NCBI GenBank assembly: GCA_022510885.1
Contig: JAFLSP010000026.1
Span: 1-16,252, forward strand
DNA: 16,252 bases
Reading direction: 5' to 3'
Origin: Treponema sp.
GTDB lineage: Bacteria; Spirochaetota; Spirochaetia; Treponematales; Treponemataceae
The notes under the pieces were generated by a model. That model did no database searches. It worked only from the letters and a program-made list of their open reading frames with translations, and was not told where the DNA came from. A program made the translations under genes and the position numbers. Shown piece by piece: positions 3,849-16,237 of this stretch (position 1 is its first letter; every line of letters starts with the position of its first letter).

Positions 3849-5159
3849 TCAGCGCAGGCTTTCCAGCGCGGAGATGACCGACTGGCGCGCGTTTGCGGCG
3901 AGCGGTCTTCCGATGTCCGTGGGGGCAAGGGCTTCCGCCACGTTCGCGGGCATGGCGGGCATCTCGCCGACGGTGTGCCTGATGTAGTCTGCGCTCAGGG
4001 CGGGATGGTCGCGCACCACGAGCACCACCACGCTCTCGTCGTAGTCGGTCAGGTCGCGGTTGTTGAGCGCGGCGGCGTATGCGGACGCGGTGAGCCGGTC
4101 GGCAAAAATGCCGTATTTCATAAAGAGCGCACGGCAGGCATCGTCAATCTGTCGGTCTGTCACCTGCATGGGGAAGACGAGGTTTTTGAGCATCAGCTCG
4201 TTGTTGTGGAACACGTCCTCAAGCCGCTCAAGGTTGGACGGACTTGCGGGGTCCGCACCTGCGCGCTTGGCAAAAGGAATCATGCCGTCCATCACGGTAC
4301 ACTGCCCCTGCATATCAAGAATCAGCTCGTCGGTCGTGGGGCAGATGAAGCCGTTGACGGGCAGCGAGAGCCGCCAACTGTACAGTCCTGCTACCAAATT
4401 GCTGTAATTGCCCGGTGCCATGGCGTAGTAGATGTCGGAATGCACGTCTTTTTTCAGGCGGCTGAAGGCGTAGGGATAGAAAAAGGTCTGCGGCATGAGC
4501 CGACCGATGTTCGCGGTGTTCGCCACGGTGAGGCGATAGTGTTCCACCAGCGCGCGGTCGGCAAAAATCTCCCGCACCAGCGCGTGGCAGTCGGCTTCCG
4601 TGCCGTCGATTTCCAGCGGATAGATGTTGCCGCCGTTCCAAATGTAATCGCTTGGGGCAAGCCCGCGCGGCGTACCCTTGGGATAGAGCAGTACGGCTTT
4701 GAGATACGATTTGCCGCGCAACGCCCGCGCAAGGCTCGCGCCTAGTTCGCCCACGGTCACGTCAAGAAAAACGGCGGAACCGCCCTTGAGCTGGAAAATC
4801 GTCTCCATGCAGTTGACGAGGTACGAAATGCCGAAGTCCTTGTGGCTGCCCGTGGGCGTTTCGCACAGTTCCAGCGTAAAAAAGCGGTCGTTGCGCTTGG
4901 TCAGTTTCGGCTCAAACGGGAAGGCGCGCGTCGCAATCGTCTCGCAGATAATCGGGCTGAATTCTTCGTTGATGCACGCGGACGTGAGCGCGCCGGCAAT
5001 GCTTGCGAACGGCGTTTTTTCGTTCGTGTACAGAATCCAACGGCGCAGGTCGGGGCTTTCGGACGGAATAAACAAACCGCCGTCCTGCGGCATACAATCC
5101 GTGACCGCGCGTTCAAAGTTGACAAACGTGTCGCTGCTTCGTGTGCTGTTAAATCTCAT
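3849..5159 (-). CDS. thrC-like: Threonine-synthase-like PLP-dependent protein
   Basis: A 436-aa fold-type II PLP protein resembling threonine synthase (O-phosphohomoserine to threonine). The PLP lysine is K107 in TGSHKDFG. Other family blocks are present: MPQDGGLFIP near the N-terminus, LYPKG, VANTANIGR and PSNLERL. Two cofactor/substrate loops are altered: the usual TSGDTG reads TVGELG and the usual PSGNFGD reads APGNYSN. The protein may therefore be a divergent threonine synthase or a paralogue with another substrate. I chose the ATG at 5159 because GGTGG lies 5-9 bases upstream; an in-frame GTG four codons earlier has no better site. It is the last gene of the five-gene operon, 36 bases after the DUF2156 gene. 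No other threonine-pathway genes (hom, thrB) are in the window. Family membership is fairly sure; enzymatic role is uncertain. Confidence 0.75.
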   Translation of the reverse strand: MRFNSTRSSDTFVNFERAVTDCMPQDGGLFIPSESPDLRRWILYTNEKTPFASIAGALTSACINEEFSPIICETIATRAFPFEPKLTKRNDRFFTLELCETPTGSHKDFGISYLVNCMETIFQLKGGSAVFLDVTVGELGASLARALRGKSYLKAVLLYPKGTPRGLAPSDYIWNGGNIYPLEIDGTEADCHALVREIFADRALVEHYRLTVANTANIGRLMPQTFFYPYAFSRLKKDVHSDIYYAMAPGNYSNLVAGLYSWRLSLPVNGFICPTTDELILDMQGQCTVMDGMIPFAKRAGADPASPSNLERLEDVFHNNELMLKNLVFPMQVTDRQIDDACRALFMKYGIFADRLTASAYAAALNNRDLTDYDESVVVLVVRDHPALSADYIRHTVGEMPAMPANVAEALAPTDIGRPLAANARQSVISALESLR

Positions 5160-5195
5160 GCTTCCACCCACAGAGAGTGTACAGGAAAAACCGAC

Positions 5196-6101
5196 TTAGT
5201 GCAATTCCGCGCGGTATTTGTTGACGAAGGCGCAGGGGCGGTAGGTCATTTTCGCTTGCCGCAGTCCTTCGTCGCCCAAGTCCTGCTCGCGGTTGATGAA
5301 CGCCACCGAGTCGGGCAGCGACTTTGCCTGCTCGTTGTTCACCGCCTGATAGATGCCGTGCACGCCGTCGATGCCTTTCTCAAAATGCGTGACGAACATC
5401 GTTCCGCCCGCGACCAGCTCGCCCAAACTGAATCCGGCAGGCTTTCCGTCCGCGTAGACGATGATGCCCGAAAGCTCCAGCTGCGCGCGGAACTGCACCG
5501 CAATGCTGCACACGAGGAAGTCGCCGTCGTTTTCGCCGCGTTCGAGTCGAACGTCGCGCCAACGGTGCAGGATTTCCAGTGCGTCGCTTGCGGTCGTATC
5601 GTCAATCGCCCTGACCTCCGCTGTGTGCGCCGCATGAAAGCCGTTCACGTGGTTTTTCTTTTTGTGGAGCGCCTTGCCGCGCAGGCGCGCCAGGTCCTCG
5701 CGCCGGTACAGGTAGTCGCAGTTGTCGCGGTCAAGGCGTGGCGAGAGTCCGAGCGCGGAAAGTACGCCTGCACCCTCCGTCACGTGCCGTTCGGACAGAT
5801 TCTTGATATACGCACACGGGCGCACTTCGGCGGAGGCGAGTATCGTGCGCAGCATTTCCTCATCGGGGAACGCGCCCATAAGCGAAAGAAATCGTATGCC
5901 GTCCGCATCGTGCCCGAGCAGCAACATCGTGTCATCGCTTGCCCGACTGATTTTGTAACGGTAGGTGTAGTTATCCAACAATAGCGAGGCAAACGTGCAC
6001 TCGCAGAGACCGTCTGTCTGTTTTTGAAAGAAAGGCAGCAGTTCACCGCGCATACAGGTTGAAACAGGCTTCCATTGCGGAAAATCGGGAAGTAATGGCA
6101 T
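5196..6101 (-). CDS. DUF2156 (phosphatidylglycerol lysyltransferase C-terminal-like) protein
   Basis: A 301-aa soluble protein recognised by the DUF2156 signature near its C-terminus, INREQDLGDEGLRQAK followed by TYRP, and by a GNAT-like segment with IIVYADGKPAGFSLGE. DUF2156 proteins share the acyltransferase fold of the catalytic half of phosphatidylglycerol lysyltransferases (MprF). This protein has no membrane domain, so lipid aminoacylation should not be assumed. A basic stretch KALHKKKNHVN sits mid-protein at about residues 142-152. The ATG lies three bases from the stop of the DUF3943 gene, so it is in the same operon and probably translationally coupled; only a weak AGG precedes it. 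No substrate can be read from the sequence. Confidence 0.75.
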   Translation of the reverse strand: MPLLPDFPQWKPVSTCMRGELLPFFQKQTDGLCECTFASLLLDNYTYRYKISRASDDTMLLLGHDADGIRFLSLMGAFPDEEMLRTILASAEVRPCAYIKNLSERHVTEGAGVLSALGLSPRLDRDNCDYLYRREDLARLRGKALHKKKNHVNGFHAAHTAEVRAIDDTTASDALEILHRWRDVRLERGENDGDFLVCSIAVQFRAQLELSGIIVYADGKPAGFSLGELVAGGTMFVTHFEKGIDGVHGIYQAVNNEQAKSLPDSVAFINREQDLGDEGLRQAKMTYRPCAFVNKYRAELH

Positions 6102-6104
6102 TGC

Positions 6105-7568
6105 CTATTTCAGCTGCAACTTTGCGTAGACGCTGGGGAAATTCGCAATTTGGAACACGTTGTCAATGTTCGGATAGAATGTCTTTTTGATATATATTTC
6201 ATCCCGCACGCCCAGGCGCACCCTCAGAGAAAGCGGCAGTTCGTAGCTCACCGTTCCCAACGCAATGCATTCCCAGCCTGTATCGGTGAACGACTGCTTT
6301 TGGCCGGCAAAATCATACATGAAGTATCCGTGCACGTCAACGGCGAGCGTATGCCCCGACGTATGCCGCCATTTCCAGCGCAGTACGGTCTCCGCGCCAA
6401 CGGTGTAACTGTATTCTCGTTCCATGCCTTCATCATAACAGAAATTACGGTACATCCTTGCCCAGTCCGTCGTACCAAGCACAATGCCTGTCAGGTGCAC
6501 TTGCCATTCCATGTCGGACTTTTCCTGCCGGACGCGCTGCTTGACCGCAAGACCCGACGCAAGCGAGGAAAGCTGCCACATATTGTTCCATATAAAGTCG
6601 TACTCAAGCACCAAGCCGAACGTCGTATCCGTCGTGTCGTCTTGCCGGGCACGCGAGATGAGCATACCGTCGCTCATGATGCGTACATCGTGGAAGAGGT
6701 TTTCGTTTGTTTTGGTCATGCCGCGTCCCGAGCCAACGCCCAACCCAACGATGATATCCAGATTGAACTGACTGTACGGATTGTTCGAGTCGTGCCCATA
6801 GGGGTCATTGTATACGATGCTGAGCCACGGGGAAGCAATCATGGGGAACGTTTCGCCGAGCGTTGCGCTGCCGAACGATGAGTGCATATACGCCATGCCC
6901 ATGTCCATCCCTACCGACATTTCGTAAATGTTCCCCACGGTTCCGCGCGGACGCTGACGCAACAACAGCTCCGACCACATCCGCTCGGGATTCACCAGGT
7001 AGCCGAGCGCCCGATGAATTTCACCCGCCTCAAGTGAAAGTCGGTACAGCATTTCTCCCACCGGAAACGCGCCGATTGACGAGTATATCAAATCGTTTTT
7101 TGACGGCAGGGTTTTCTCGCAGAAATACTCCCAGGTAAAATCAGCAAGCGTGGCAAGCGCGAACGACTCGATGCGGTTCAGGTTCGCGCTCCGCCCCGCC
7201 ATGTACGACATTGCCCCTTGGGCCGGATGCAGCACGAAATTCGTCCAGTACCAGTCATAGTCCCACTCCCATTTGTGCTCATAAAAATGGAAAATCCAAT
7301 CCCAGTTAACTTTTGCCCAGGACGAGCCTATGAGGTAACGGTCCCAGAACAGCACGGTGCCGACCCAAAGTGCCGCCCCGGAGAGCGCGACCAGATAATG
7401 TTTTTTGCCGTCGTTCTCTTCGTAGACGGGTATGCCGTAGGTCTCCTCTGCGGACAGCAGCCGCACCGCGTCAAAGGTGATTTCTGGGGATGCAGTGGAC
7501 GTATGTTGCGCGGGCAGCACGGAGCAGACCACGACCGCCGCCATAAAAACAAGGAATCGTCTTTTCAT
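6105..7568 (-). CDS. Secreted DUF3943 envelope protein
   Basis: A 487-aa protein with a clear N-terminal signal peptide (MKRRF, then a hydrophobic run, likely cleavage after LPA at residue 20). A second hydrophobic segment lies at about residues 57-80. Residues 83-180 carry the DUF3943 signature: aromatic-rich WxWDYDWYWTN, NFVLHPAQGAMSY, then a block around FTWEYFCEK and SSIGAFPVGEML. The remaining 300 residues alternate aromatic and polar positions and end in the aliphatic YAKLQLK, consistent with outer-membrane beta strands. The protein is probably periplasmic/outer membrane, function unknown. Its ATG overlaps the HPt stop codon as ATGA, giving tight translational coupling to signalling genes. 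A Cys at 15 lies inside the hydrophobic core and does not make a good lipobox. Confidence 0.8.
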   Translation of the reverse strand: MKRRFLVFMAAVVVCSVLPAQHTSTASPEITFDAVRLLSAEETYGIPVYEENDGKKHYLVALSGAALWVGTVLFWDRYLIGSSWAKVNWDWIFHFYEHKWEWDYDWYWTNFVLHPAQGAMSYMAGRSANLNRIESFALATLADFTWEYFCEKTLPSKNDLIYSSIGAFPVGEMLYRLSLEAGEIHRALGYLVNPERMWSELLLRQRPRGTVGNIYEMSVGMDMGMAYMHSSFGSATLGETFPMIASPWLSIVYNDPYGHDSNNPYSQFNLDIIVGLGVGSGRGMTKTNENLFHDVRIMSDGMLISRARQDDTTDTTFGLVLEYDFIWNNMWQLSSLASGLAVKQRVRQEKSDMEWQVHLTGIVLGTTDWARMYRNFCYDEGMEREYSYTVGAETVLRWKWRHTSGHTLAVDVHGYFMYDFAGQKQSFTDTGWECIALGTVSYELPLSLRVRLGVRDEIYIKKTFYPNIDNVFQIANFPSVYAKLQLK

Positions 7569-7909
7569 TGCGCCACTATCTCGTCCAGCTGCTTTTTGAG
7601 GGCAACGATGCGCGCGTACATCGCGGTGTAGTCGATGTCCTCCCGGCGGCGCAGTGGCTCAACGATGGCCTCAAGCGCGTCGGAAAGCGGTGTGAGCGAG
7701 ACGTTGGCGACGATGCCTTTGAGCGCGTGCGCGTCCTCGAACGCCGCCTGCAAGTCCTTCGCGATGAGCGCGGAGCCAAGCGACGCAAATTTCTCGTTCG
7801 CCGCCACCATCCGTATCATCTTGAAGTAAAAATCCTCTTTGTTCAGGCAGCGCGCCATGCCCTCGTCGTAGCTCGCGCCATACGCGAGCAGTGCATCTTT
7901 TGTCAGCAT
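7565..7909 (-). CDS. HPt domain phosphotransfer protein
   Basis: A stand-alone histidine phosphotransfer protein of 114 aa, about the size of one four-helix HPt domain. The phospho-acceptor is H61 in the motif HALKGIVANV, matching the HPt consensus HxLKGxxxN. Such proteins shuttle phosphoryl groups between receiver domains of hybrid kinases and response regulators. A textbook AAGGAGG lies six bases before the ATG, inside the 19-base gap after the upstream regulator. The obvious partner is the receiver domain of that regulator; no histidine kinase is encoded in the window. The stop overlaps the next start by four bases. Confidence 0.88.
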   Translation of the reverse strand: MLTKDALLAYGASYDEGMARCLNKEDFYFKMIRMVAANEKFASLGSALIAKDLQAAFEDAHALKGIVANVSLTPLSDALEAIVEPLRRREDIDYTAMYARIVALKKQLDEIVAQ

Positions 7910-7928
7910 ATTCCCTCCTTAAGTTCGC

Positions 7929-9686
7929 CTATTGCATCGGCCGGAGCCGTTCCTCAAATTTCTTCGCCGTCGCCGGGCTTTCGTTCTTAAGCGCCGTGCC
8001 CTGTTTTACCTGCTCAAGCAGCTCGCTCGTCGGAATCGGCTTGCCGAAATAGAAGCCCTGAATCTTCTCGCAGCCGTGCTTTCTGAGGAATTCCAGCTGT
8101 TCGGCCGTCTCCACGCCCTCGGAGAGCGTGTGGATGCCCAGTTCCTTTGCCATGGAAAGCAGCGCGCGCAGAATCACGCCGTTCTTGCCCGTCGGGTTGA
8201 AGTTGCGCATGAATCCGATGTCGAATTTCAGCAGGTCGAAGCTCATTTCCTGAAGCACGTTGAGCGAAGCGTAGCCGTCGCCGAAGTCGTCCATCCACAC
8301 CTTGAAGCCGAGCGCGTGGAAATGGTCAATCTGCTCCTGCAAATACGCCGCGTTGCGCGAGAAGCCGCTTTCGGTTACCTCAATCATGAGCATTTCGTGC
8401 GGCACGTGGTAGCGGTCCATGATTTCGGTGACGGCGGCAACCATGTCGCGCTGGTCAAAGTCCGTGCGGCAGAAGTTGAGCGAGACCGGCACGGGAGTCA
8501 GCCCGCCTTTCTTGCGGATTTCGTACTCGCGGCAGACTTCCTCCACCATGTACAAGTCCATGCGCACGCCGAGGTTGTAGTCCTCGATGACGGGGATGAA
8601 CACGCCCGGCGAGAGCAGGCCGCGCTGCGGGTCAATCCAACGGGCGAGTGCCTCGAAGTTGCAGACCTCGCCCGTCTCCGCGCGCACAATCGGCTGATAG
8701 TAGACTTTTATCCAGTGTTCTTCCAGCGCCTGACCGAAGTAGGCGAGAATGTGCTGCCGGTCGTCGGACTCCTTCATCAGCTTCTGGTCGTAGTAGCAGA
8801 GCGCGTCGTTGTAGTTGACGCGCAGCGTGGCGCAGGCAAGGCGCGCGTAGTCAATCGCCGTAATCACGTTCGGCGTGAGTCCCTCGCGCTCCAGGAAGAT
8901 GCCCGCGTGGACCTCCACGGACGTGCCTTTGCCCACCTGCCGCAGCCGCCTGCGGAAATCCTCCAGCTGCTGCTGGTGCGCGGCCGCGCTCGTCATCACG
9001 GCGAAGTGGTCGTCGGAGATGCGGCAGACGGGCATTCCGACAAAGGTATTCCGAAGGACTGCCGCCGTCTTCATCAGCAGCGTGTCGCCCTCGGTGTAGC
9101 CGAAACGCGCGTTGTAGCCTTTCATGTTCACGATGTCAATATAAATGAATGCGGGCGAATCGCTCTGCGCGATGAGCCGCGTCTTTTCCGCCTCGCACAA
9201 ACTCTTGAAATGCGACATGTTGGGCAGGTCAGTGAGCGGGTCTTTCTCCGTCGTCCGGATAATGTAGTTTTCTTCTGCCATGCGGATTGACTTTGCCACG
9301 CGCGCGAGAATCAGCTCGGGCATGTCGAAAGGCTTGGTGATGAAGTCGCTTGCTCCCTGCTCAAACGTTTCGATTTCCGCCTCTTTCTGCGCTGTCAGGA
9401 CGAGCACCGGGATGTGACGGAGCATTTCGTCCATGCGCATTTCTTTGAGTACCTCAAAGCCGTTCATCTGCGGCATGGAAAGGTCGAGCAGCACCGCCGA
9501 AAGGATGCTGCTGTAGCGGCGAATCAATTGCAAGGCCTCAAGACCATCGGATGCCGTCTCCACCTTGTAGCGTTCCTCAAGAATGTTGGTCAGCAACATC
9601 CGGTTGACTTCCTCGTCGTCCACCACAAGCACAAGCGGCTTGCCATGTATGCTCTCGTCAAGTTCAAAATCAGCAACGTCTACCAT
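7929..9686 (-). CDS. REC - degenerate GGDEF - EAL response regulator (c-di-GMP phosphodiesterase)
   Basis: A 585-aa three-domain response regulator. The receiver (about 15-140) has acidic D23-D24, phospho-acceptor D68 in LLDLSMPQMNG and K118 in TKPF, so it looks phosphorylatable. The GGDEF domain (about 148-305) has SDDHF at 224-228 in place of GGDEF and should not make c-di-GMP. The EAL domain (about 320-565) keeps the expected catalytic residues: NFEALARW (E345), LNF, IEVTES, DDFG, KFD, EGVET and QGF, so c-di-GMP hydrolysis to pGpG is likely. I chose the ATG at 9686 because GAGGAG is correctly spaced upstream; the longer frame begins with TTG inside the -10 region. First gene of the operon, followed by HPt, suggesting phosphorelay control of c-di-GMP. 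Confidence 0.9.
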   Translation of the reverse strand: MVDVADFELDESIHGKPLVLVVDDEEVNRMLLTNILEERYKVETASDGLEALQLIRRYSSILSAVLLDLSMPQMNGFEVLKEMRMDEMLRHIPVLVLTAQKEAEIETFEQGASDFITKPFDMPELILARVAKSIRMAEENYIIRTTEKDPLTDLPNMSHFKSLCEAEKTRLIAQSDSPAFIYIDIVNMKGYNARFGYTEGDTLLMKTAAVLRNTFVGMPVCRISDDHFAVMTSAAAHQQQLEDFRRRLRQVGKGTSVEVHAGIFLEREGLTPNVITAIDYARLACATLRVNYNDALCYYDQKLMKESDDRQHILAYFGQALEEHWIKVYYQPIVRAETGEVCNFEALARWIDPQRGLLSPGVFIPVIEDYNLGVRMDLYMVEEVCREYEIRKKGGLTPVPVSLNFCRTDFDQRDMVAAVTEIMDRYHVPHEMLMIEVTESGFSRNAAYLQEQIDHFHALGFKVWMDDFGDGYASLNVLQEMSFDLLKFDIGFMRNFNPTGKNGVILRALLSMAKELGIHTLSEGVETAEQLEFLRKHGCEKIQGFYFGKPIPTSELLEQVKQGTALKNESPATAKKFEERLRPMQ

Positions 9687-9730
9687 AGTTTCTCCTCGTG
9701 ACCCGATTTCGCGCGAAAAATAACGTCTCA

Positions 9731-9759
9731 ATTATAGCGAACGACGGAACTTTTTGCCA
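9731..9759 (-). promoter_or_regulatory. Promoter for the REC-EAL operon
   Basis: On the - strand a perfect TATAAT (9731-9736) is preceded, after 17 bp, by TGGCAA (9754-9759), a weak -35. Transcription would start near 9724, giving a leader of roughly 38 nt before the ATG at 9686. It lies just downstream of the tRNA terminator, so the operon starts fresh here. Confidence 0.65.
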
Positions 9760-9904: not shown

Positions 9905-9933
9905 ATCATAGCATTTTTTCGCGATTAGTGCAA
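9905..9933 (-). promoter_or_regulatory. Promoter for the tRNA gene, inside the end of asnB
   Basis: On the - strand TATGAT (9905-9910) is preceded by TG at the extended -10 position and, 17 bp upstream, by TTGCAC (9928-9933). The -35 box lies within the last codons and stop of asnB. Transcription would begin around 9898, six bases before the mature tRNA 5' end. The tRNA may also be reached by readthrough from asnB, since no terminator lies between them. Confidence 0.6.
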
Positions 9934-11658
9934 TCGGTACGCGCTTTCGTGTACACCTGCAACGGCGCGGCCGCTCGGCTCGTCCATGGATTTCCAGGCG
10001 GCGTCCCATTCCAGTGCCTTTGCGGTGGAGCAGGCGACGCTCGCCTCGTGGGGAACGGTGCGGGCGGCGGTCTCACTGGGGAACAGACCCGCAAAAATCT
10101 CGCGGTAGTAGTAGGCCTCTTTGGTTGCGGGCGTGTTGACGGGGAAACGCCGCGCGCGGCTGGCGAACTGCGCGTCGCTTATTTTGCTTTCCGCCACCTG
10201 CTTGAGCGTGTCAATCCAGTTGTAGCCCACGCCGTCGCTGAACTGCTCTTTCTGCCGCCAGCAGATTTCCGGGGGGAGCAAGTCCTCGAATGCCTTGCGC
10301 AGCACCCATTTTTCGATGCGCTGGCTGCCGTCCGCCTGTTTGACGCACATCTTGTCCTGCGGGTTGACGCGCATGGCGATGTCGATGAATTCCTTGTCCA
10401 AAAACGGCACGCGCCCCTCCACGCCCCATGCCGAAAGGCTCTTGTTGGCGCGCAGGCAGTCGTACAGGTGCAGTTTGCCCATCTTGCGCACCAGTTCCTC
10501 GTGGAATTCGCGCGCATTCGGGGCCTTGTGGAAGTAGAGGTAGCCGCCGAACAGCTCGTCGCTGCCTTCTCCGCTTAAGACCATCTTGATGCCCATCGAC
10601 TTGATGACGCGGGCGAGCAGGTACATCGGCGTGGACGCGCGCACCGTGGTGATGTCGTAGGTCTCGATGTGATAGATGACGTCGGGCAGCGCGTCGAGGG
10701 CTTCCTGCACCGTAAAATGCACTTCGTGGTGCACCGTCCCGATGAAGTCGGCGGCTTTGCGCGCGGCGGCAAGGTCGGGGCTGCCCTCAAGCCCAATCGC
10801 AAAACTGTGCAGGCGCGGCCACCACGCCGTCTCCGTGCCGCCGGTCTCCACGCGCTTTTCGGCAAAACGCTGCGCAATCGCCGCGATAATCGAGCTGTCA
10901 AGCCCGCCGCTCAGAAGCACGCCGTAGGGCACGTCGCTCATCAGCTGCTTTTTGACGGCGGCTTCCAGTCCCGCGCGCAGGGCGGCGCGGTCGCTCTTGT
11001 TGTGCTCAACCGCCGCAAAGTCCTCCCAGTCGCGGTGATACCAGCGCACCGGCTCGCGCGTCGCCGCCGTACCCGCGCCCGCTCCGCCCACCAGATAGCA
11101 GCCGTTGGGGAATTCTTCTATTGTACAGCACGTGCCTTCCAGCGCCTTCAGTTCCGAGGCGACGTAATAGCGGCCGTCCGCGTCCCAGCCCTGATAGAGC
11201 GGAATCACGCCGATTTCGTCCCGCGCGATGAGGTACAAGTCCTTTTCGCTGTCGTACAGGGCGAAAGCGAAAATGCCGCTCAAGTCCTCCAGAAAATCCA
11301 CGCCCTTTTCCTGATAGAGCGGCAGAATCACCTCGCAGTCGCTCTGCGTCTTGAATGCGTACTTGCCCGCGTAGGCGGCGCGGATGTCCTTGTGGTTGTA
11401 GATTTCGCCGTTCACCGCAAGGATGACCGTGCCGTCCGTGCTGACCAGCGGCTGCTTGCCCGAAAGCGGGTCAACGATGGCAAGTCGCTCGTGGCTCAGC
11501 AGGGCGTTCTCTCCCGTGTACACGCCGCTCCAGTCCGGCCCGCGGTGGCGGATTTTCCGCGACATATCCAAAACCCGCGCGCGCAGCTCGTCGCGCAGCC
11601 CCTCGTCAATCGGCCTGCTTCCCGCCGCCAAATCAAACGCACCCACAAATCCACACAT
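9925..11658 (-). CDS. asnB: Asparagine synthetase B (glutamine-hydrolysing)
   Basis: Makes asparagine from aspartate, ATP and glutamine in the cytoplasm. The 577-aa protein closely follows the E. coli AsnB layout (554 aa). The N-terminal glutaminase domain has Cys2 as nucleophile (MCGFVG), RHRGPDWSG, VNGEIYNH and SDCEVI. The synthetase domain has the PP-loop SGGLDSS at about 250-256, SGEGSDELFGGY at about 362-373 and GRVPFLD. The start must be the ATG at 11658, because maturation exposes Cys2; AAGGAG lies six bases upstream. Longer readings begin inside the leader hairpin and are not plausible. It is separated from the ANTAR gene by a promoter and a strong hairpin, so expression is probably controlled by attenuation. 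A tRNA gene follows 32 bases after the stop. Confidence 0.97.
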   Translation of the reverse strand: MCGFVGAFDLAAGSRPIDEGLRDELRARVLDMSRKIRHRGPDWSGVYTGENALLSHERLAIVDPLSGKQPLVSTDGTVILAVNGEIYNHKDIRAAYAGKYAFKTQSDCEVILPLYQEKGVDFLEDLSGIFAFALYDSEKDLYLIARDEIGVIPLYQGWDADGRYYVASELKALEGTCCTIEEFPNGCYLVGGAGAGTAATREPVRWYHRDWEDFAAVEHNKSDRAALRAGLEAAVKKQLMSDVPYGVLLSGGLDSSIIAAIAQRFAEKRVETGGTETAWWPRLHSFAIGLEGSPDLAAARKAADFIGTVHHEVHFTVQEALDALPDVIYHIETYDITTVRASTPMYLLARVIKSMGIKMVLSGEGSDELFGGYLYFHKAPNAREFHEELVRKMGKLHLYDCLRANKSLSAWGVEGRVPFLDKEFIDIAMRVNPQDKMCVKQADGSQRIEKWVLRKAFEDLLPPEICWRQKEQFSDGVGYNWIDTLKQVAESKISDAQFASRARRFPVNTPATKEAYYYREIFAGLFPSETAARTVPHEASVACSTAKALEWDAAWKSMDEPSGRAVAGVHESAYRLH

Positions 11659-11691
11659 AGTCCGCTCCTTGCGCTCCTCTTCCCGGAGACG

Positions 11692-11747
11692 AAAAAAGGC
11701 ATCTGCCGCACCCGACTTGCGCACAAATCGGATGCGACAGACACCTT
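11692..11747 (-). terminator. Long hairpin with U6 tract in the asnB leader (candidate attenuator)
   Basis: Read on the - strand, 11745-11724 pairs with 11719-11698 as 22 uninterrupted base pairs (17 Watson-Crick, 5 G:U) around a TGCG loop; two further A:U pairs extend the base. Six T residues follow (11697-11692). The five wobbles would be A-C mismatches on the + strand, so the fold belongs to the - strand transcript. It lies 37 bases after the ANTAR stop, and asnB starts 33 bases after the T run, with no promoter in between. It therefore ends glmS-operon transcripts and must also be crossed by any asnB transcript. No Asn codon, T-box sequence or clear paired hexaloop is visible in the leader. 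Confidence 0.85.
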
Positions 11748-11759
11748 CGTCCTGCTCTC

Positions 11760-11788
11760 ACTATAGTGCATCGCGCGGCTTTCGTCAA
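11760..11788 (-). promoter_or_regulatory. Sigma-70-type promoter upstream of the asnB attenuator
   Basis: On the - strand TTGACG (11783-11788) and TATAGT (11760-11765) are separated by exactly 17 bp, the best two-box promoter in the window. Transcription would start near 11753, about six bases before the hairpin, giving a leader of roughly 95 nt. The -35 box overlaps the stop codon of the ANTAR gene. Confidence 0.75.
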
Positions 11789-12354
11789 TCACCGTAGCGG
11801 CGGATGATGTCCTGCGCGACCTCCGTGCGGCTCTGCCGGCTGTCCATGGCGATTTTTTCGATGTGGCGGTGCGCCTGCGGCTCGGTGAGGGCGAGGCGCG
11901 CAATCAGCAGGCATTTTGCGCGGCTGATGAGGCGGCTTTCGTCCAGTTTTTGTTGCAGGCGGCGGTTCTCGGCCTCAAGTTTGGCGAGCCGCGCCCTGCT
12001 TGCCATGAGCAGTTTGACCGCCTGATAGAAAAAGTCGGGGCTAATCGGCTTGGGGAGCACGAACACGCCGTCGTCCTCCACCTGCATGGCGATGTCGTCC
12101 AGTTTCTCGCGCTGCACGACCAGAATCACGCCCGCGGACGACGATTCCGCCGCGTGCAGGGCAAAGGCGTCGCCCAGCTCGTTGGAAAGCGGCGTGTCGA
12201 TGATGATGATGTCGAACGCGCCGTCGAGCAGACAGCGCCGCGCCTCCGAGCCGTCCGTGGTGGTGACGATGCGGCTGAATGCCTGGGACTGGAGCAGCTC
12301 GCTGATGATGCCCATCGTCGTGCTGGCGTTGGAAACGATAAGGACGCTCTCCAT
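11785..12354 (-). CDS. nitR-like: ANTAR-domain RNA-binding antiterminator with pseudo-receiver
   Basis: A 189-aa protein with a receiver-like N-terminal domain (1-115), a coiled-coil linker (about 118-140, LAKLEAENRRLQQKL) and a C-terminal ANTAR domain (about 135-187; SRLISRAKCLL, then LTEPQAHRHIEKIAMDSR and VAQDIIRRY). ANTAR proteins such as AmiR, NasR and EutV bind nascent RNA and prevent terminator formation. The receiver keeps D53 (IIIIDTP) and K102 (LPKP), but the acidic pair near the N-terminus is replaced by IVSNAS, so phosphorylation is unlikely. I chose the ATG at 12354, seven bases after the glutamine-synthetase stop; there is no good Shine-Dalgarno, so coupling is likely, and upstream extension would overlap the previous gene with Arg-rich sequence. 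The glnA-ANTAR order recalls glnA-nitR of clostridia. A candidate target hairpin lies immediately downstream. Confidence 0.88.
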   Translation of the reverse strand: MESVLIVSNASTTMGIISELLQSQAFSRIVTTTDGSEARRCLLDGAFDIIIIDTPLSNELGDAFALHAAESSSAGVILVVQREKLDDIAMQVEDDGVFVLPKPISPDFFYQAVKLLMASRARLAKLEAENRRLQQKLDESRLISRAKCLLIARLALTEPQAHRHIEKIAMDSRQSRTEVAQDIIRRYGD

Positions 12355-12361
12355 ACGATGC

Positions 12362-13615
12362 CTAGACCGTGCCGAACGCCGGGTCGTCCGCCTCCGCCGC
12401 AAGGAAAGCCTCGACCGTCGCCTGCGGCAGCACCGTGCGCACGAACGCGCTCTCGCGCGCGCAGGAGCGGGCTTCGGTCAGGTCGCGCGGCAGCGACTCG
12501 AACGATACGCCGCCGTCCCACCCGGGCGAATCCGCCTGTTTCGGCTCGGCAAGCGCGAGTCCCTGCTCAATGCCCTCCAGTCCCGCCGAAAGGATGAGCG
12601 CGAGCGCGAGGTACTGGTTGCACGAGGGGTCGGGCGAGCGCAACTTGAGATACGCGCCGTGCTCGGTCGGCTCGGGAACGCGGACAAGCTGATTGCGCTG
12701 CTCGCGCGTCCAGGCGATTTCACGCGGCGCGCCGTGCCAGGCGAGACGGTCATACGACTCCCGCAACGGATTCAAAAACGCCGTTATCTCGCGGATGCGG
12801 AACAGGATGCCCGCGATGAATGCGCGCGCTTCGGGAAAAAGCGACAAATTCGTCAAAAGATTTTTGTTGCCCTTGTACAGCGCGATGTTGATGTACAGCC
12901 CGCTTCCCGCGCCGTCTGCAACCGGCTTGGGCAGGAAGGACGCGAACAGCCCGTAGCGGTCGGCGACCGTCTTGACCACCGTCTTGAACGTGCTGAGGTT
13001 GTCCGCCGCGTCAAGCGGCGTTCCGCGCCGGAAATCGACCTCGTTCTGCCCCGGTCCTTTCTCGTGGTGGCTCGACTCCGGCTGCACGCCCATCTGCTCC
13101 AAAGTCAGGCAGATTTCACGGCGCACGTTCTCGCCCCGGTCGCGCGGCGCAAGGTCGCAGTAGCCGGCCGCGTCGTGCGGCGTTCGCGTGGGATTGCCCT
13201 TGTCGTCTCGCTGAAACAAATAGAATTCGCATTCCGTGCCGATTTTGCACTCGTATCCTTTTTCCGCCAGCCGCTCCACCGTCTGCCGCAGCAGCTTGCG
13301 CGAGTCGCCCGGGAACGCCGTGCCGTCAGCCGTGCGCACCGTGCAGAAAAAGCGCACCACGCGCCCGTCCTGCGGCCGCCACGGAAGCACGCACAGGGTC
13401 GCCGGGTCGGGGACGATGAACAAATCCTGCGCCACGCCCGCAAAGCCCGCCACCGCGTTCGCGTCAAAGGCGATGCCCGTCTCGAACGCGCGCGCCACTT
13501 CCGACGGCTGAATCGAAAGCGACTTTATCGCCCCGAACATATCGATGAAGAACAGTTTGATGAACTTTACGTCGTGCTCCTGCAAATAGGCCTGCGCCTC
13601 GTCCTTGGTGTACAT
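12362..13615 (-). CDS. glnA-like: Glutamine synthetase family protein, probably catalytically inactive
   Basis: A 417-aa type I glutamine-synthetase homologue (usual length about 440-470). Recognisable blocks are FIDMFG, FDANAVAGF, TECEFYLF (E128, E130), SHHEKGPGQNE (E185, E192), FLPKP, SGLYINIAL and RSPDPSCNQYL. Compared with Salmonella GlnA, first-metal ligands E131, E212 and E220 are kept. Second-metal ligands H269 and E357 are replaced by Y241 and K324, and flap residue E327 by G295. H271 is N243, which I recall also in active clostridial short-type enzymes. The protein ends in AEADDPAFGTV, apparently missing the usual last 20 or so residues. The frame is intact and codons read cleanly (TAC, AAG, GGC), so this is not a decayed pseudogene. 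It is third in the glmS operon and directly precedes the ANTAR gene. A regulatory or sensor role is inferred; altered catalysis is the alternative. Confidence 0.88.
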   Translation of the reverse strand: MYTKDEAQAYLQEHDVKFIKLFFIDMFGAIKSLSIQPSEVARAFETGIAFDANAVAGFAGVAQDLFIVPDPATLCVLPWRPQDGRVVRFFCTVRTADGTAFPGDSRKLLRQTVERLAEKGYECKIGTECEFYLFQRDDKGNPTRTPHDAAGYCDLAPRDRGENVRREICLTLEQMGVQPESSHHEKGPGQNEVDFRRGTPLDAADNLSTFKTVVKTVADRYGLFASFLPKPVADGAGSGLYINIALYKGNKNLLTNLSLFPEARAFIAGILFRIREITAFLNPLRESYDRLAWHGAPREIAWTREQRNQLVRVPEPTEHGAYLKLRSPDPSCNQYLALALILSAGLEGIEQGLALAEPKQADSPGWDGGVSFESLPRDLTEARSCARESAFVRTVLPQATVEAFLAAEADDPAFGTV

Positions 13616-13624
13616 TCCGCCTCC

Positions 13625-14383
13625 TCACGCCAGCAACGACTCGTCGCCGGTGTCCTTTTCAAATTCCGCCGCATCCATCGCGCGCGTAATCACGGCGGCA
13701 GAAAGCCCCGCGTAGTCCGCCCGCTTCGTGCCGAGCGCGGCAAGCTCCCGTGCGGCAATGCGCGCGAACGCGAACGCGCCGTCGGGACGCAGGTGGCTGT
13801 TGTCCGCCTTGCCGTCGGGAAAATTCTCGTACAAGCCGCCGTCAAAGTGCATGAAAAGCGCGCGGCTTGCCGCCTCGCCCCGCGCCGCAAGGTACGCGCC
13901 CGAAAGCGCCGTCATGTCGATGCACGGAACGTCCTGCGCGCGCGCGACCGCGAGGACGGCGGCGGGATAGTCGCCGTGCGTGTCCTCCAGCGTGTGCTCG
14001 GCGGAGAATTTGCGGCGGGCAATCGGCGTGAGCAGGATTGGCTTTGCGCCAAGCGCGCGCAACTCGCACACAAATCGCGTAAGGTTCGCGCGGAACGCGC
14101 CGCCCGCGCCGGGGTCGGTGTAGCGCGCGGCATCCTGCGCCTTTTCGTCGTTATGCCCGAACTGGATGAGCGCGAAGTCGCCCGCCCGCGCCGCCTGCTT
14201 CACCGCGTCAAAGCGCCCCTCGTCGATAAAACTTTTTGTGCTGCGCCCGTTCTTGGCAAAGTGCAAGAATTCCGTCTCCACGGGGAAAAAACGCGCCAAT
14301 TCCTGCACCCAGCCGGTCTGCGGATAGGTCGTGCAGTCGTTGTACTGCATGATGGAGTCGCCCAAACACAAGATTCTCATCAT
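13625..14383 (-). CDS. SGNH/GDSL esterase, rhamnogalacturonan acetylesterase-like
   Basis: A 252-aa cytoplasmic SGNH hydrolase with all four blocks: block I GDS (S10 nucleophile), block II NGRST (G46), block III GHND (N78) and block V DNSHLRPDGA (D194, H197). The spacing and the NGRST and HLRPDGA wording are closest to rhamnogalacturonan acetylesterases (CE12), which remove acetyl groups from pectin fragments. There is no signal peptide, so the substrate would be internal, perhaps an imported oligosaccharide or acetylated sugar. Two ATG codons are adjacent; GGGGAG is better spaced for the second (14380). It lies between glmS and the glutamine-synthetase homologue with nine-base gaps, so it is co-transcribed with them; the reason is not evident. 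Confidence 0.82.
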   Translation of the reverse strand: MMRILCLGDSIMQYNDCTTYPQTGWVQELARFFPVETEFLHFAKNGRSTKSFIDEGRFDAVKQAARAGDFALIQFGHNDEKAQDAARYTDPGAGGAFRANLTRFVCELRALGAKPILLTPIARRKFSAEHTLEDTHGDYPAAVLAVARAQDVPCIDMTALSGAYLAARGEAASRALFMHFDGGLYENFPDGKADNSHLRPDGAFAFARIAARELAALGTKRADYAGLSAAVITRAMDAAEFEKDTGDESLLA

Positions 14384-14392
14384 CCGCTCCCC

Positions 14393-16237
14393 TTACTCGA
14401 CCGTGACCGACTTTGCCAGGTTGCGCGGCTTGTCGGGGTCGTTTCCGCGCTGCACGGCGCAGTAGTAGGCGAGCAGCTGCGCGGGAACAATCGCGAGAAT
14501 CGGCGAGAGCGCGTCGGCGACCGGCGGAATCGCAATCACCGTGTCAACCGCGTCCGTGAACGCGCCGTCCGTGTCCTGCGTGATGACCATCGTCGCCGCG
14601 CCGCGCGCCTTCACCTCCAAGATGTTTGAGGCGATTTTTTCGTACAGCGCGCGCTGGGTGGCAATGCCGACCACCAGGCTGTTTTTGTCCATGAGCGCAA
14701 TCGGCCCGTGCTTCAGCTCGCCGGCGGCAAAGGCCTCGCAGTGCATATAGCTCACTTCCTTGAGCTTGAGCGCGCTTTCGAGCGACGACGCGCTGTCGAA
14801 CAGCCGCCCGATGTAAAAAATCTTCGCCTTGTTGAACTGACGGCTCGTGAACTTCTGAATGTCGGTCTGATTGTCCAAAATCTGCCGCACCTTGTCCGGG
14901 AGCGCCGCCAGCTCGCCGAGCGTCTGCGCGTAGTCCGCCGCCGCAATCGTGCCGCGCGTCTGCGCCAGCTTGAGCGCGAGCAGGTACAGGCACATCAGCT
15001 GCGTCGTGTACGCTTTAGTAGAGGCCACCGCGATTTCCGGCCCCGCCCAGGTGTAGATTACCTCGTCCGCCTCGCGGCTCACGCTGCTGCCCACGCAGTT
15101 GGTGATGGCAATCACCTTTGCGCCCGCCGCCTTTGCCAGACGGAGCGCGGCAAGCGTGTCCGCCGTCTCGCCCGACTGGCTGATGACGATAAAGATGTCG
15201 TCCTCGCGCAGGATGGGATTGCGGTAGCGGAACTCGCTCGCCACGTCCACCACCACGGGAATGCGCGCGAAATGCTCGAACACGTACTTGCCCACCATGC
15301 CCGCGTGGTATGCCGTGCCGCACGCCGTAATCACCACGCGCCGCGCGTCCGCCCATGCCGCGCCCATGTCGATTTCGTCAAACTGAATGTCGCATGGTCG
15401 GCCGTCCTCGTCCAGCACCAGGCGCGGACGCAGCGTGTCGGTCAGCGCCTTGGGCTGCTCGTAGATTTCTTTCAGCATGAAGTGCGCGTAGCCGTCTTTC
15501 TCCGCGGACGAGATGTCCCAGTCCACGTGATACGGCTCGCGCCTGATTTTCTCGCCCGCCGCCGTAAAGAGGTCCACGTGGTCGTCGTACAGCACCGCGA
15601 CCTCTTTCTGCTCAAGGAAGTAGACGTCGCGCGTGTGCTCAAGAATCGCCGGAACGTCGCTCGCGATGAACTGCTCGCCCTTGCCCAGGCCGACAATCAG
15701 CGGGCATTCCTTGCGCGCGGCGATAAGGCGGTCGGGAAAATCCTTGCAGACGATGCCGAGCGCATAGCTGCCCTCAAGCTGCGCAATCGCCGCGAGGACT
15801 GCCTTGAAAATCTCGCCCGTCCTTTCGTAGTGGTAGGTGATGAGGTGCGTGATGACCTCCGAATCGGTCTGGCTGCGGAACACCACGCCCTGGTCTTGCA
15901 GCCACGCCTTGAGCGCGGCGTAGTTCTCGATGATGCCGTTGTGCACCACCGCGATTGACCCGCCCTCGTTGACGTGCGGATGCGCGTTCGTGTCGCTCGG
16001 CTCGCCGTGCGTCGCCCACCGCGTGTGCCCGATTCCCACCGAGCCGCGAATCGTCTCCTTTGCGAGGGCTTCCTCCAGGAAGGCAAGCGCGCCCTTCGCC
16101 TTGCGCACGACGATGTTGTCGCCGTCCATCACCGCAACGCCCGCAGAATCGTAGCCGCGGTACTCCAGTTTTTTGAGCGCGTTAATCAGGACGGGCGTCG
16201 CTTCCCGGTGTCCCACATAGCCAACAATTCCACACAT
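14393..16237 (-). CDS. glmS: Glutamine--fructose-6-phosphate aminotransferase (isomerizing)
   Basis: Makes glucosamine-6-phosphate from fructose-6-phosphate and glutamine, the entry step to peptidoglycan and amino-sugar synthesis. The protein is 614 aa (E. coli 609). The glutaminase domain has Cys2 (MCGIVGYVG), YRGYDSAG at 26-33, HTRWATHG at 71-78, NGIIENY at 100-106 and SQTDSEV at 122-128. Two SIS sugar-binding domains follow, with CGTAYHAG, SQSGETADT, AVASTKAYTTQ and GELKHGPIAL. The C-terminus DKPRNLAKSVTVE is the canonical ending, so the gene is complete. GGAGG precedes the ATG at 16237 by about six bases. It is first in the visible operon; its leader and promoter are beyond the window edge, so a ribozyme or other leader control cannot be assessed. 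Confidence 0.97.
   Translation of the reverse strand: MCGIVGYVGHREATPVLINALKKLEYRGYDSAGVAVMDGDNIVVRKAKGALAFLEEALAKETIRGSVGIGHTRWATHGEPSDTNAHPHVNEGGSIAVVHNGIIENYAALKAWLQDQGVVFRSQTDSEVITHLITYHYERTGEIFKAVLAAIAQLEGSYALGIVCKDFPDRLIAARKECPLIVGLGKGEQFIASDVPAILEHTRDVYFLEQKEVAVLYDDHVDLFTAAGEKIRREPYHVDWDISSAEKDGYAHFMLKEIYEQPKALTDTLRPRLVLDEDGRPCDIQFDEIDMGAAWADARRVVITACGTAYHAGMVGKYVFEHFARIPVVVDVASEFRYRNPILREDDIFIVISQSGETADTLAALRLAKAAGAKVIAITNCVGSSVSREADEVIYTWAGPEIAVASTKAYTTQLMCLYLLALKLAQTRGTIAAADYAQTLGELAALPDKVRQILDNQTDIQKFTSRQFNKAKIFYIGRLFDSASSLESALKLKEVSYMHCEAFAAGELKHGPIALMDKNSLVVGIATQRALYEKIASNILEVKARGAATMVITQDTDGAFTDAVDTVIAIPPVADALSPILAIVPAQLLAYYCAVQRGNDPDKPRNLAKSVTVE

Follow-up and report, generated by a model that had tools for sequence, protein, structure and literature searches.

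RESULTS

A glutamine synthetase homologue with a probably inactive catalytic site

The stretch of DNA analysed here (16,252 nucleotides [nt], contig JAFLSP010000026.1 of the Treponema sp. assembly GCA_022510885.1; hereafter the window) encodes, on its minus strand, a homologue of glutamine synthetase (GS) in which several catalytic residues are replaced. It is followed by a gene for an antiterminator of the ANTAR family and then by asnB, whose leader resembles an ANTAR target. The two genes at the centre of this analysis are as follows.

12362..13615, minus strand: putative GS pseudoenzyme, 417 amino acids, ATG start, with H269/E327/E357/R355 replaced by Y241/G295/K324/Y322
11785..12354, minus strand: pseudo-receiver and ANTAR antiterminator protein, 189 amino acids, starting 7 nt after the stop codon of the GS-like gene

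The GS-like protein matched the Pfam models Gln-synt_C (PF00120, 269.7 bits) and Gln-synt_N (PF03951, 62.6 bits) and scored 301.8 bits against the NCBIfam GlnA equivalog model TIGR00653, under its cut-off of 429.15. Its best sequence match in the Protein Data Bank (PDB) was the M. mazei GS (E 1e-94). An AlphaFold2 model, a check proposed in the initial annotation, returned a confident GS fold (predicted local distance difference test [pLDDT] 86.9, predicted template modelling score [pTM] 0.90), and Foldseek matched this model to the M. mazei structure 8tfk with a TM score of 0.91 (about 0.9 to 8tfk and 8s59). We conclude that the gene product is a type I GS homologue with the GS fold, comprising a beta-Grasp and a catalytic domain.

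The catalytic roles of type I GS residues are known from the Salmonella literature, and Salmonella numbering is used for them here. Alignments to E. coli GlnA and to the M. mazei GS 8s59 placed Y241, G295 and K324 in the columns of H269, E327 and E357, as the initial annotation had proposed; a search of the same alignments for other His or Glu residues that might fill these columns found none, and the R355 column was also changed, to Y322. The n1 metal ligands E131, E212 and E220 were present as E130, E185 and E192, in agreement with the intact n1 site claimed earlier, while the n2 ligands were reduced to E129 (E128), H269 and E357 being the two replaced. Four arginines were retained, namely R321, R344 and R359 (as R290, R312 and R326) and R339 (as R307). 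H271 corresponds to N243, which is normal for the GS-like family. The phosphoryl-transfer half of the active site (n2 metal, flap and R355) is dismantled, and much of the glutamate side is retained. We rejected a misaligned flap as the source of this pattern because close relatives with E at that column align without an extra gap. As part of a joint model with the ANTAR protein, discussed below, we consider it reasonably probable that the product of the window gene is a type I GS homologue devoid of catalytic activity.

The C-terminus had also been described as about 20 residues short. It is indeed shorter than those of the M. mazei and E. coli enzymes, by about 14 to 15 residues, but the shortening is no sign of decay because it is found across the GS-like family: after the same column there are 28 residues in the window protein and a median of 30 in the other GS-like rows, compared to 43 in E. 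coli. On the plus strand, an 859-amino-acid open frame (12050-14629) runs antisense to the GS-like gene and its neighbours; such a frame is typical of GC-rich DNA and probably does not represent a gene.

The initial annotation had asked for a search for a second GS gene, and the genome does have one. This encodes a 708-amino-acid type III GS (glnN) on contig C6, followed directly by a gene (4399-6153 of locus L054) for an AmtB protein with a C-terminal PII domain. Of the 196 genomes of the genus, 188 yielded a type III GS, among them 84/84 of those with at least 90% completeness and at most 5% contamination. Given this enzyme, the GS-like protein should not be needed to make glutamine.

The catalytic changes define a clade, and catalytic residues have probably been lost repeatedly in the family

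Seven sequences share the changes seen in the window and form what we term the Y/G/K clade (the own-genome protein, G221, G099 and P0004 to P0007, where G and, below, L numbers denote genomes and loci). They make up one side of a branch with a Shimodaira-Hasegawa-like approximate likelihood ratio test (SH-aLRT) support of 99 in a 138-row quick tree. In every one the first two columns hold Y and G; the third holds K, except for T in P0007 (Y/G/T). The same three changes occur in L055, L056, P0004, P0005, P0006 and the fragment P0014. L055 and L056 belong to two other genomes and are 98% identical to each other, P0004 is a near-copy of L056, and G221, G099 and P0004 are near-copies of one another. 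A sequencing or binning error is unlikely, since the same changes are found in other genomes.

H269, E327, E357 and R355 were replaced in 7/7 rows of the clade, the flap column being G in every one; R321, R344, R359, E131 and E212 were retained in all seven, and R339 was lost in six. Other lineages had lost other residues. In a sister clade (P0053, P0068 and P0074, the last identical to L070), E327P and R339A occurred in 3/3 rows and E129K and E220Q in 2/3; P0064, from Treponema brennaborense by its source name, carried E129D, R339L and E357K. A second paralogue group, group B, had K in place of E327 in 30/30 rows and retained the other catalytic columns in 28 to 30 of them. (In these residue counts the group labelled A_rest, with 142 rows, includes the Y/G/K fragment P0014 and L070, and many rows are near-copies.) Repeated loss of catalytic residues within the GS-like family is therefore probable. 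The GS-like protein of locus L033 (1-10848), from a Clostridiales metagenome-assembled genome (MAG), is degenerate at yet other columns, with S at E129, S at E327 and I at E357; its gene lies in the row gltB-gltD-GSlike-ANTAR-carA-carB.

Might the GS-like protein still be an enzyme with an altered reaction, such as a gamma-glutamyl ligase acting on another amine or a catalyst of a partial reaction, which the ANTAR protein merely regulates? The replaced residues would then mirror a new substrate. The retained n1 site and glutamate-binding arginines are consistent with this, and group B, changed at the flap and near intact elsewhere, would fit an altered amine specificity. The Y/G/K clade, however, lacks both variable n2 ligands and R355 as well, and R339 in 6/7 rows, and the different set of losses in the sister clade looks like released constraint rather than one new chemistry. 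We regard an altered enzyme as unlikely.

The ratio of nonsynonymous to synonymous substitution rates (dN/dS, NG86 method) was 0.24, 0.26 and 0.13 for three Y/G/K pairs, the two higher values being those of the window gene against L055 and L056. For eight pairs in which the catalytic set is complete the ratio was 0.03-0.11, with dS near saturation, and a ninth yielded no value; the ANTAR gene gave 0.05-0.10. Selection on the clade, which the initial annotation had proposed to test, is purifying and perhaps relaxed. The higher ratios for the window gene would suit a decaying remnant that persists solely through its position in an operon, though the comparison is with pairs near dS saturation. 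Against such decay, dN/dS is well under 1, the fold is confidently predicted, and the mean column identity across 30 family members is 61%. The frames are also intact in three genomes, in keeping with the intact frame noted for the window gene at the outset, and four relatives from metagenomes have the gene at full length. On the strength of the intact frames and dN/dS we rejected a pseudogene, and we consider a decaying remnant very unlikely.

The GS-like gene is almost always followed by an ANTAR gene with a degenerate receiver

In 54 of 56 loci, covering both paralogue groups and the Clostridiales MAG, an ANTAR frame in the same orientation lay 3' of the GS-like gene. The two unpaired loci, L009 and L065, end at contig edges, with 109 and 115 nt left. 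Group B loci that also have an ANTAR gene downstream include L012, L016, L040 and L098, and members of this group lie in various loci near carAB, pyrG, gltBD, glnN or amtB.

The partner encoded in the window scored 58.7 bits against the Pfam ANTAR model (PF03861, cut-off 27.3) and 33.3 bits against Response_reg. The top PDB matches to its profile were 1s8n and 6wsh, which we take to be Rv1626 and EutV, followed in third place by AmiR (1qo0_D). Among 65 distinct ANTAR frames, the ANTAR positions K147 and M170 were conserved in 65/65 and 64/65 rows, respectively (one gap). In the receiver domain, the phospho-acceptor Asp was kept in 63/65 rows and the Lys in 51/65. The acid pair fared differently: the first acidic residue was S, T or A in 65/65 frames, and the second position was non-acidic in 56 and acidic in 9 (the pair is S/N in the window receiver). 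The receiver is therefore degenerate, and control by the usual phosphate signal is unlikely. Because the acidic pocket needed for phosphorylation is missing, the input to the ANTAR protein must come from elsewhere, and the co-encoded GS-like protein would be the obvious source of the signal.

ANTAR and GS-like genes also matched in number. Exactly one PF03861 domain was found in the genome under study (G000, 88% complete) and one in 7/8 other GS-like genomes checked; the eighth, G001, had two ANTAR domains and has two GS-like genes. No PF03861 domain was found in 12 genomes that lack a GS-like match (G214 being counted as GS-negative by elimination).

It is conceivable that the two proteins act independently, with the ANTAR protein constitutive or responsive to another signal, such as PII, and the GS-like protein an unrelated scaffold. 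PII-type sensing is common, and this genome itself encodes the AmtB-PII fusion beside glnN. The two genes nevertheless adjoin in 54 of 56 loci, in both paralogue groups and in the Clostridiales MAG, be the active site intact or degraded, and linkage of this kind is what partners would show. We therefore judge independent action to be quite unlikely.

The asnB leader resembles a single-hexaloop antiterminator

The region between the ANTAR gene and asnB contains the following features.

11760..11788, minus strand: sigma-70-like promoter of asnB, TTGACG-17-TATAGT, its -35 box overlapping the ANTAR stop region
11739..11752, minus strand: candidate antiterminator hairpin, GGAC(GAAGGT)GTCT, a C-G-closed hexaloop with G at loop position 4 (G4), with which the transcript is expected to begin
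11698..11745, minus strand: predicted intrinsic terminator, at least 20 pairs followed by T6
9925..11658, minus strand: asnB, glutamine-hydrolysing asparagine synthase (NCBIfam PRK09431, 873.5 bits, cut-off 499)

The -10 box of the promoter ends 11 nt before the hexaloop. The 5' arm of the terminator consists of the hexaloop and the 3' arm of the antiterminator hairpin, so that the two hairpins are mutually exclusive. A pattern scan found this hairpin design in 10 of 11 asnB leaders; in the remaining one, L087, the terminator was present and the hairpin irregular. In another locus, L081 (~8700-8849, minus strand), short tandem repeats of a GCTCAAGC-type unit lie upstream of asnB, between the ANTAR gene and the asnB leader.

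From 25 pattern hits, 22 were aligned (alignment A1), leaving out L048, L095 (a copy of L049) and L046:10471 (which looked spurious). In this alignment the paired share of cells was 94.5% for the antiterminator and 98.7% for the terminator, compared to at most 53.6% and 60.4% when the alignment was slid; as the seeds had been picked for pairing and for having both hairpin and terminator, information comes solely from the outer pairs and from the slide test. The 22 seeds, which include the window leader, had been picked for an RAAGNN loop and were used to build a covariance model of the leaders, R1. A second model, R2, was rebuilt from 50 leaders; the sources of R2 and of alignment A3 exclude L051 and L132 (an antisense match and a duplicate). 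Adding the own-genome glnN leader to the 50 matches gave a set of 51, which does not contain the L051 asnB leader.

All 51 leaders had a C-G-closed loop with G4, a base that the pattern required, and the first loop position was A in 46 and G in 5. Several loops (AACGGC, AGAGAG, AATGAC, AACGAG, AATGAG and AAGGGC) depart from the RAAGNN of the seeds yet retain A at position 1 and G4. The rule for these two bases and the two-hairpin design of ANTAR target RNAs are described in the accessible portions of two reports (PMC3369931, PMC8164766). A promoter-like -10 box ended 10-18 nt before the loop in 47/51 leaders, with 1.3 expected from shuffled upstream sequence. The RNA therefore probably starts at the hexaloop hairpin, which leaves little room for a second loop. 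An upstream (P1) hexaloop was found in 4/51 leaders vs. 2.0 expected in shuffles. A strict search of the neighbourhood loci for dual-hexaloop ANTAR targets (both stems at least 4 bp) returned 15 candidate pairs, none before a consistent gene set. The leaders look like natural single-hexaloop antiterminators. Tandem attenuators, each with two hexaloop-terminator units, were seen before glnN in L094 (7653-7803), L098 (11022-11159) and L135 (342-502).

Similar leaders occur across the genus and, where annotated, mostly precede glutamine and glutamate genes

In the genome under study, R1 matched the asnB leader (11686-11758, E 1e-7; a seed) and the leader of a gamma-aminobutyric acid (GABA)-transaminase-like gene (E 0.006), and R2 added glnN (E 0.009). 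The amtB leader has the same design by pattern alone, with no model match; this AmtB-PII leader carries its own hexaloop-terminator, with the loop AATGGC. In L151, on contig C23 of the same genome, an attenuator is followed by the GABA-transaminase-like gene, a cytidylate-kinase-like gene, an amino acid permease gene and an iron alcohol dehydrogenase gene.

In each of eight genomes with a GS-like gene the top R1 match lay between E 2.5e-9 and 1e-4. Thirty-seven matches were listed and 36 annotated, the other being an antisense match in G060 that, like its sense twin, lacks the loop. Of the annotated matches, 29 precede asnB, gltB, gltD, glnN, gdhA, pyrG, purF, carA or the GS-like gene. When ten representative targets were compared with NCBIfam, gdhA, gltD, pyrG, LL-diaminopimelate (LL-DAP) aminotransferase, dapF, purF and carA exceeded the fitting cut-off; gltB, which is cut by the locus edge, and the GABA-transaminase-like gene fell under it, and one target had no match at E 1e-60. 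Other target genes were named from cluster membership, Pfam or a reading of the sequence.

Among 12 genomes free of the GS-like gene, nine had no R1 match and three (G007, G034 and G065) had seven weak matches between them, at E 7e-4 or worse. None of the seven contained a C-G-closed hexaloop; three in G065 were A-T-closed and lay in an A/T run. At E 1e-4, R2 was positive in 167 of 196 genomes of the genus. For the 186 genomes listed by name in both searches, 161 had both a GS-like gene and an attenuator, 11 a GS-like gene only, 5 an attenuator only and 9 neither (Fisher p 4e-7, kinship ignored); six GS-negative genomes, seven GS-positive ones and G214 stand outside this table.

Other genes in the window

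Two further genes lie upstream of the GS-like gene.

14393..16237, minus strand: glmS, glutamine-fructose-6-phosphate transaminase (NCBIfam TIGR01135, 810.8 bits)
13625..14383, minus strand: GDSL hydrolase, upstream of the GS-like gene with a 9-nt gap

We presume that glmS, the GDSL gene, the GS-like gene and the ANTAR gene form an operon with glmS first, the leader of which would lie beyond the contig end. glmS adjoins the GS-like/ANTAR pair in many relatives of paralogue group A. Further along the minus strand, 7565-9731 encodes a receiver-GGDEF-EAL protein followed by a small open reading frame, whose product presumably resembles an Hpt domain.

DISCUSSION

We favour, with fair confidence, a model in which the dead GS reads the nitrogen state of the cell and gates the pseudo-receiver ANTAR antiterminator over a glutamine regulon. 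A GS-like oligomer would hold the ANTAR protein inactive, or activate it, according to nitrogen state, the cue for which might be 2-oxoglutarate bound between subunits, an amino acid held by what is left of the active site, or both. Once released, the ANTAR protein would bind the lone hexaloop hairpin with which the nascent leader RNA begins and block the overlapping terminator, allowing polymerase to proceed into asnB, glnN and amtB as well as further genes of glutamine and glutamate metabolism. The broader proposition, that a GS pseudoenzyme serves as a dedicated nitrogen sensor for a dead-receiver ANTAR protein, with a regulon of single 5'-terminal hexaloops that extends through the genus and in which one hexaloop suffices, we put at about even chances.

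Several observations weigh against this model. Contact between the two proteins, the ligand, the activity of either protein, the direction of the response and antitermination itself are all deduced, the remainder of the model being read from sequence. The initial annotation suggested a pseudoenzyme selected for sensing or protein binding; the near-fixed pairing with an ANTAR gene fits this, but sensing of glutamine by the feedback mechanism of the B. subtilis enzyme is unlikely, as both of its contacts are gone in the window protein (Glu304 is G295 and Arg62 is G60). Many group A relatives hold the full catalytic set beside the same ANTAR neighbour, so that the pairing does not require catalytic loss, and these proteins may remain enzymes. 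The window's own loop, GAAGGT, has G4 but G rather than the A found at position 1 in most relatives. Seven of the 36 annotated leader matches fall outside the glutamine and glutamate set: five lie before dapF (twice), an LL-DAP aminotransferase gene, an ATP-binding cassette (ABC) binding protein-like gene and a relative of ornithine cyclodeaminase, and two have no loop and no clear target. The 11 GS-like genomes listed without an attenuator at E 1e-4 include the genome under study when stricter filters are used. Conversely, attenuators occur in G072, G086, G138, G146, G154 and G214 (65-92% complete), in which neither a GS-like match (for G214, by elimination) nor an ANTAR domain was found; these likely reflect incomplete assembly, or else the terminators are orphaned. 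The genomes of the R1 panel with solely a group A GS-like gene (G221, G099 and G070) gave two matches each, which indicates that their regulon is small or poorly modelled. Finally, ANTAR targets of the canonical kind carry a pair of hexaloops, both of which EutV requires in vivo for the eut system, according to the part of PMC8934654 available to us; one is seen here.

With regard to the ligand, the 2-oxoglutarate contacts of the M. mazei GS (F24, R26, S38, R87, R172, R173 and S189, as given in the accessible text of PMC11957540) are identical in the window protein at 6/7 positions, R26 being K20. The counterpart of R87 is R80, and R occupies this column in 186/186 rows other than E. coli. Several of these residues are common to other type I-alpha GS and so prove little. 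We consider 2-oxoglutarate a lead only, its putative site being better preserved than the glutamine contacts.

That GS can be enzyme and sensor at once is a textbook theme, and a sensor that outlived the enzyme would separate these roles cleanly. If the model is correct, the repeated loss of different residues within one kind of GS-ANTAR gene pair would let this genus display, in nature, the steps between an enzyme that also senses and a protein that only senses. The model also suggests how spirochaetes that their sources name Treponema may control nitrogen assimilation. An ANTAR dimer engages hexaloops singly, and one hexaloop has been called the minimal motif (PMC8934654, in part); single-hexaloop leaders bear on a question posed by the authors of the EutV structure, namely why two are needed when one dimer binds one. 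Dozens of natural leaders are available in this genus for examining that question, and the genomes checked have one ANTAR protein for each GS-like protein.

ANTAR control of nitrogen genes is itself known (PMC3369931, in the portion consulted). Among the literature matches listed, we found no report of a dead GS paired with an ANTAR protein, of a spirochaete regulon of this kind or of single-hexaloop regulons, most subscription journals lying outside the search. A GS gene beside an ANTAR gene is known in clostridia; what appears to be new is the dead GS at that position and the single-hexaloop regulon.

The clostridial arrangement is the closest in gene order. Clostridial nitR has been described, and in C. 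thermocellum a nitrogen-assimilation cluster contains Clo1313_2031 (GS) and Clo1313_2030 (ANTAR), in which, by locus tag, a GS gene adjoins a receiver-ANTAR gene as it does here. In contrast to our system, the accessible text of the report (PMC4676874) mentions no dead GS, pseudo-receiver or single-hexaloop leader. In Gram-positive bacteria, GS also doubles as a nitrogen sensor through GlnR, with GS and GlnR encoded in one operon (PMC9249791, as far as its available text goes). The GS-GlnR and GS-TnrA pairs involve an active GS and a DNA-binding regulator, whereas here the GS is apparently dead, with Glu304 and Arg62 lost, and the regulator belongs to an RNA-binding family.

AmiC and NasS are presumably binding proteins of folds other than that of GS. 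In the AmiC-AmiR system of Pseudomonas and the NasS-NasT system of Paracoccus, as in the pair described here, a ligand-binding partner is encoded beside an ANTAR antiterminator, the targets belong to nitrogen metabolism, and normal kinase control is, at least in our case, unlikely (PMC3795266 and PMC3369936, both seen in excerpt). They differ in that the partner here would be a dead GS, and in that a complex of the two proteins is here a prediction from gene linkage. With the targets of EutV, the leaders share a hairpin that is mutually exclusive with an intrinsic terminator and a hexaloop with G4, which the search pattern required, and in most leaders, though not the window's own, with A at position 1 (PMC3369931 and PMC8934654, in the sections accessible); the target RNAs of EutV are dual-hexaloop, whereas those described here present one hairpin, placed where the transcript is expected to begin.

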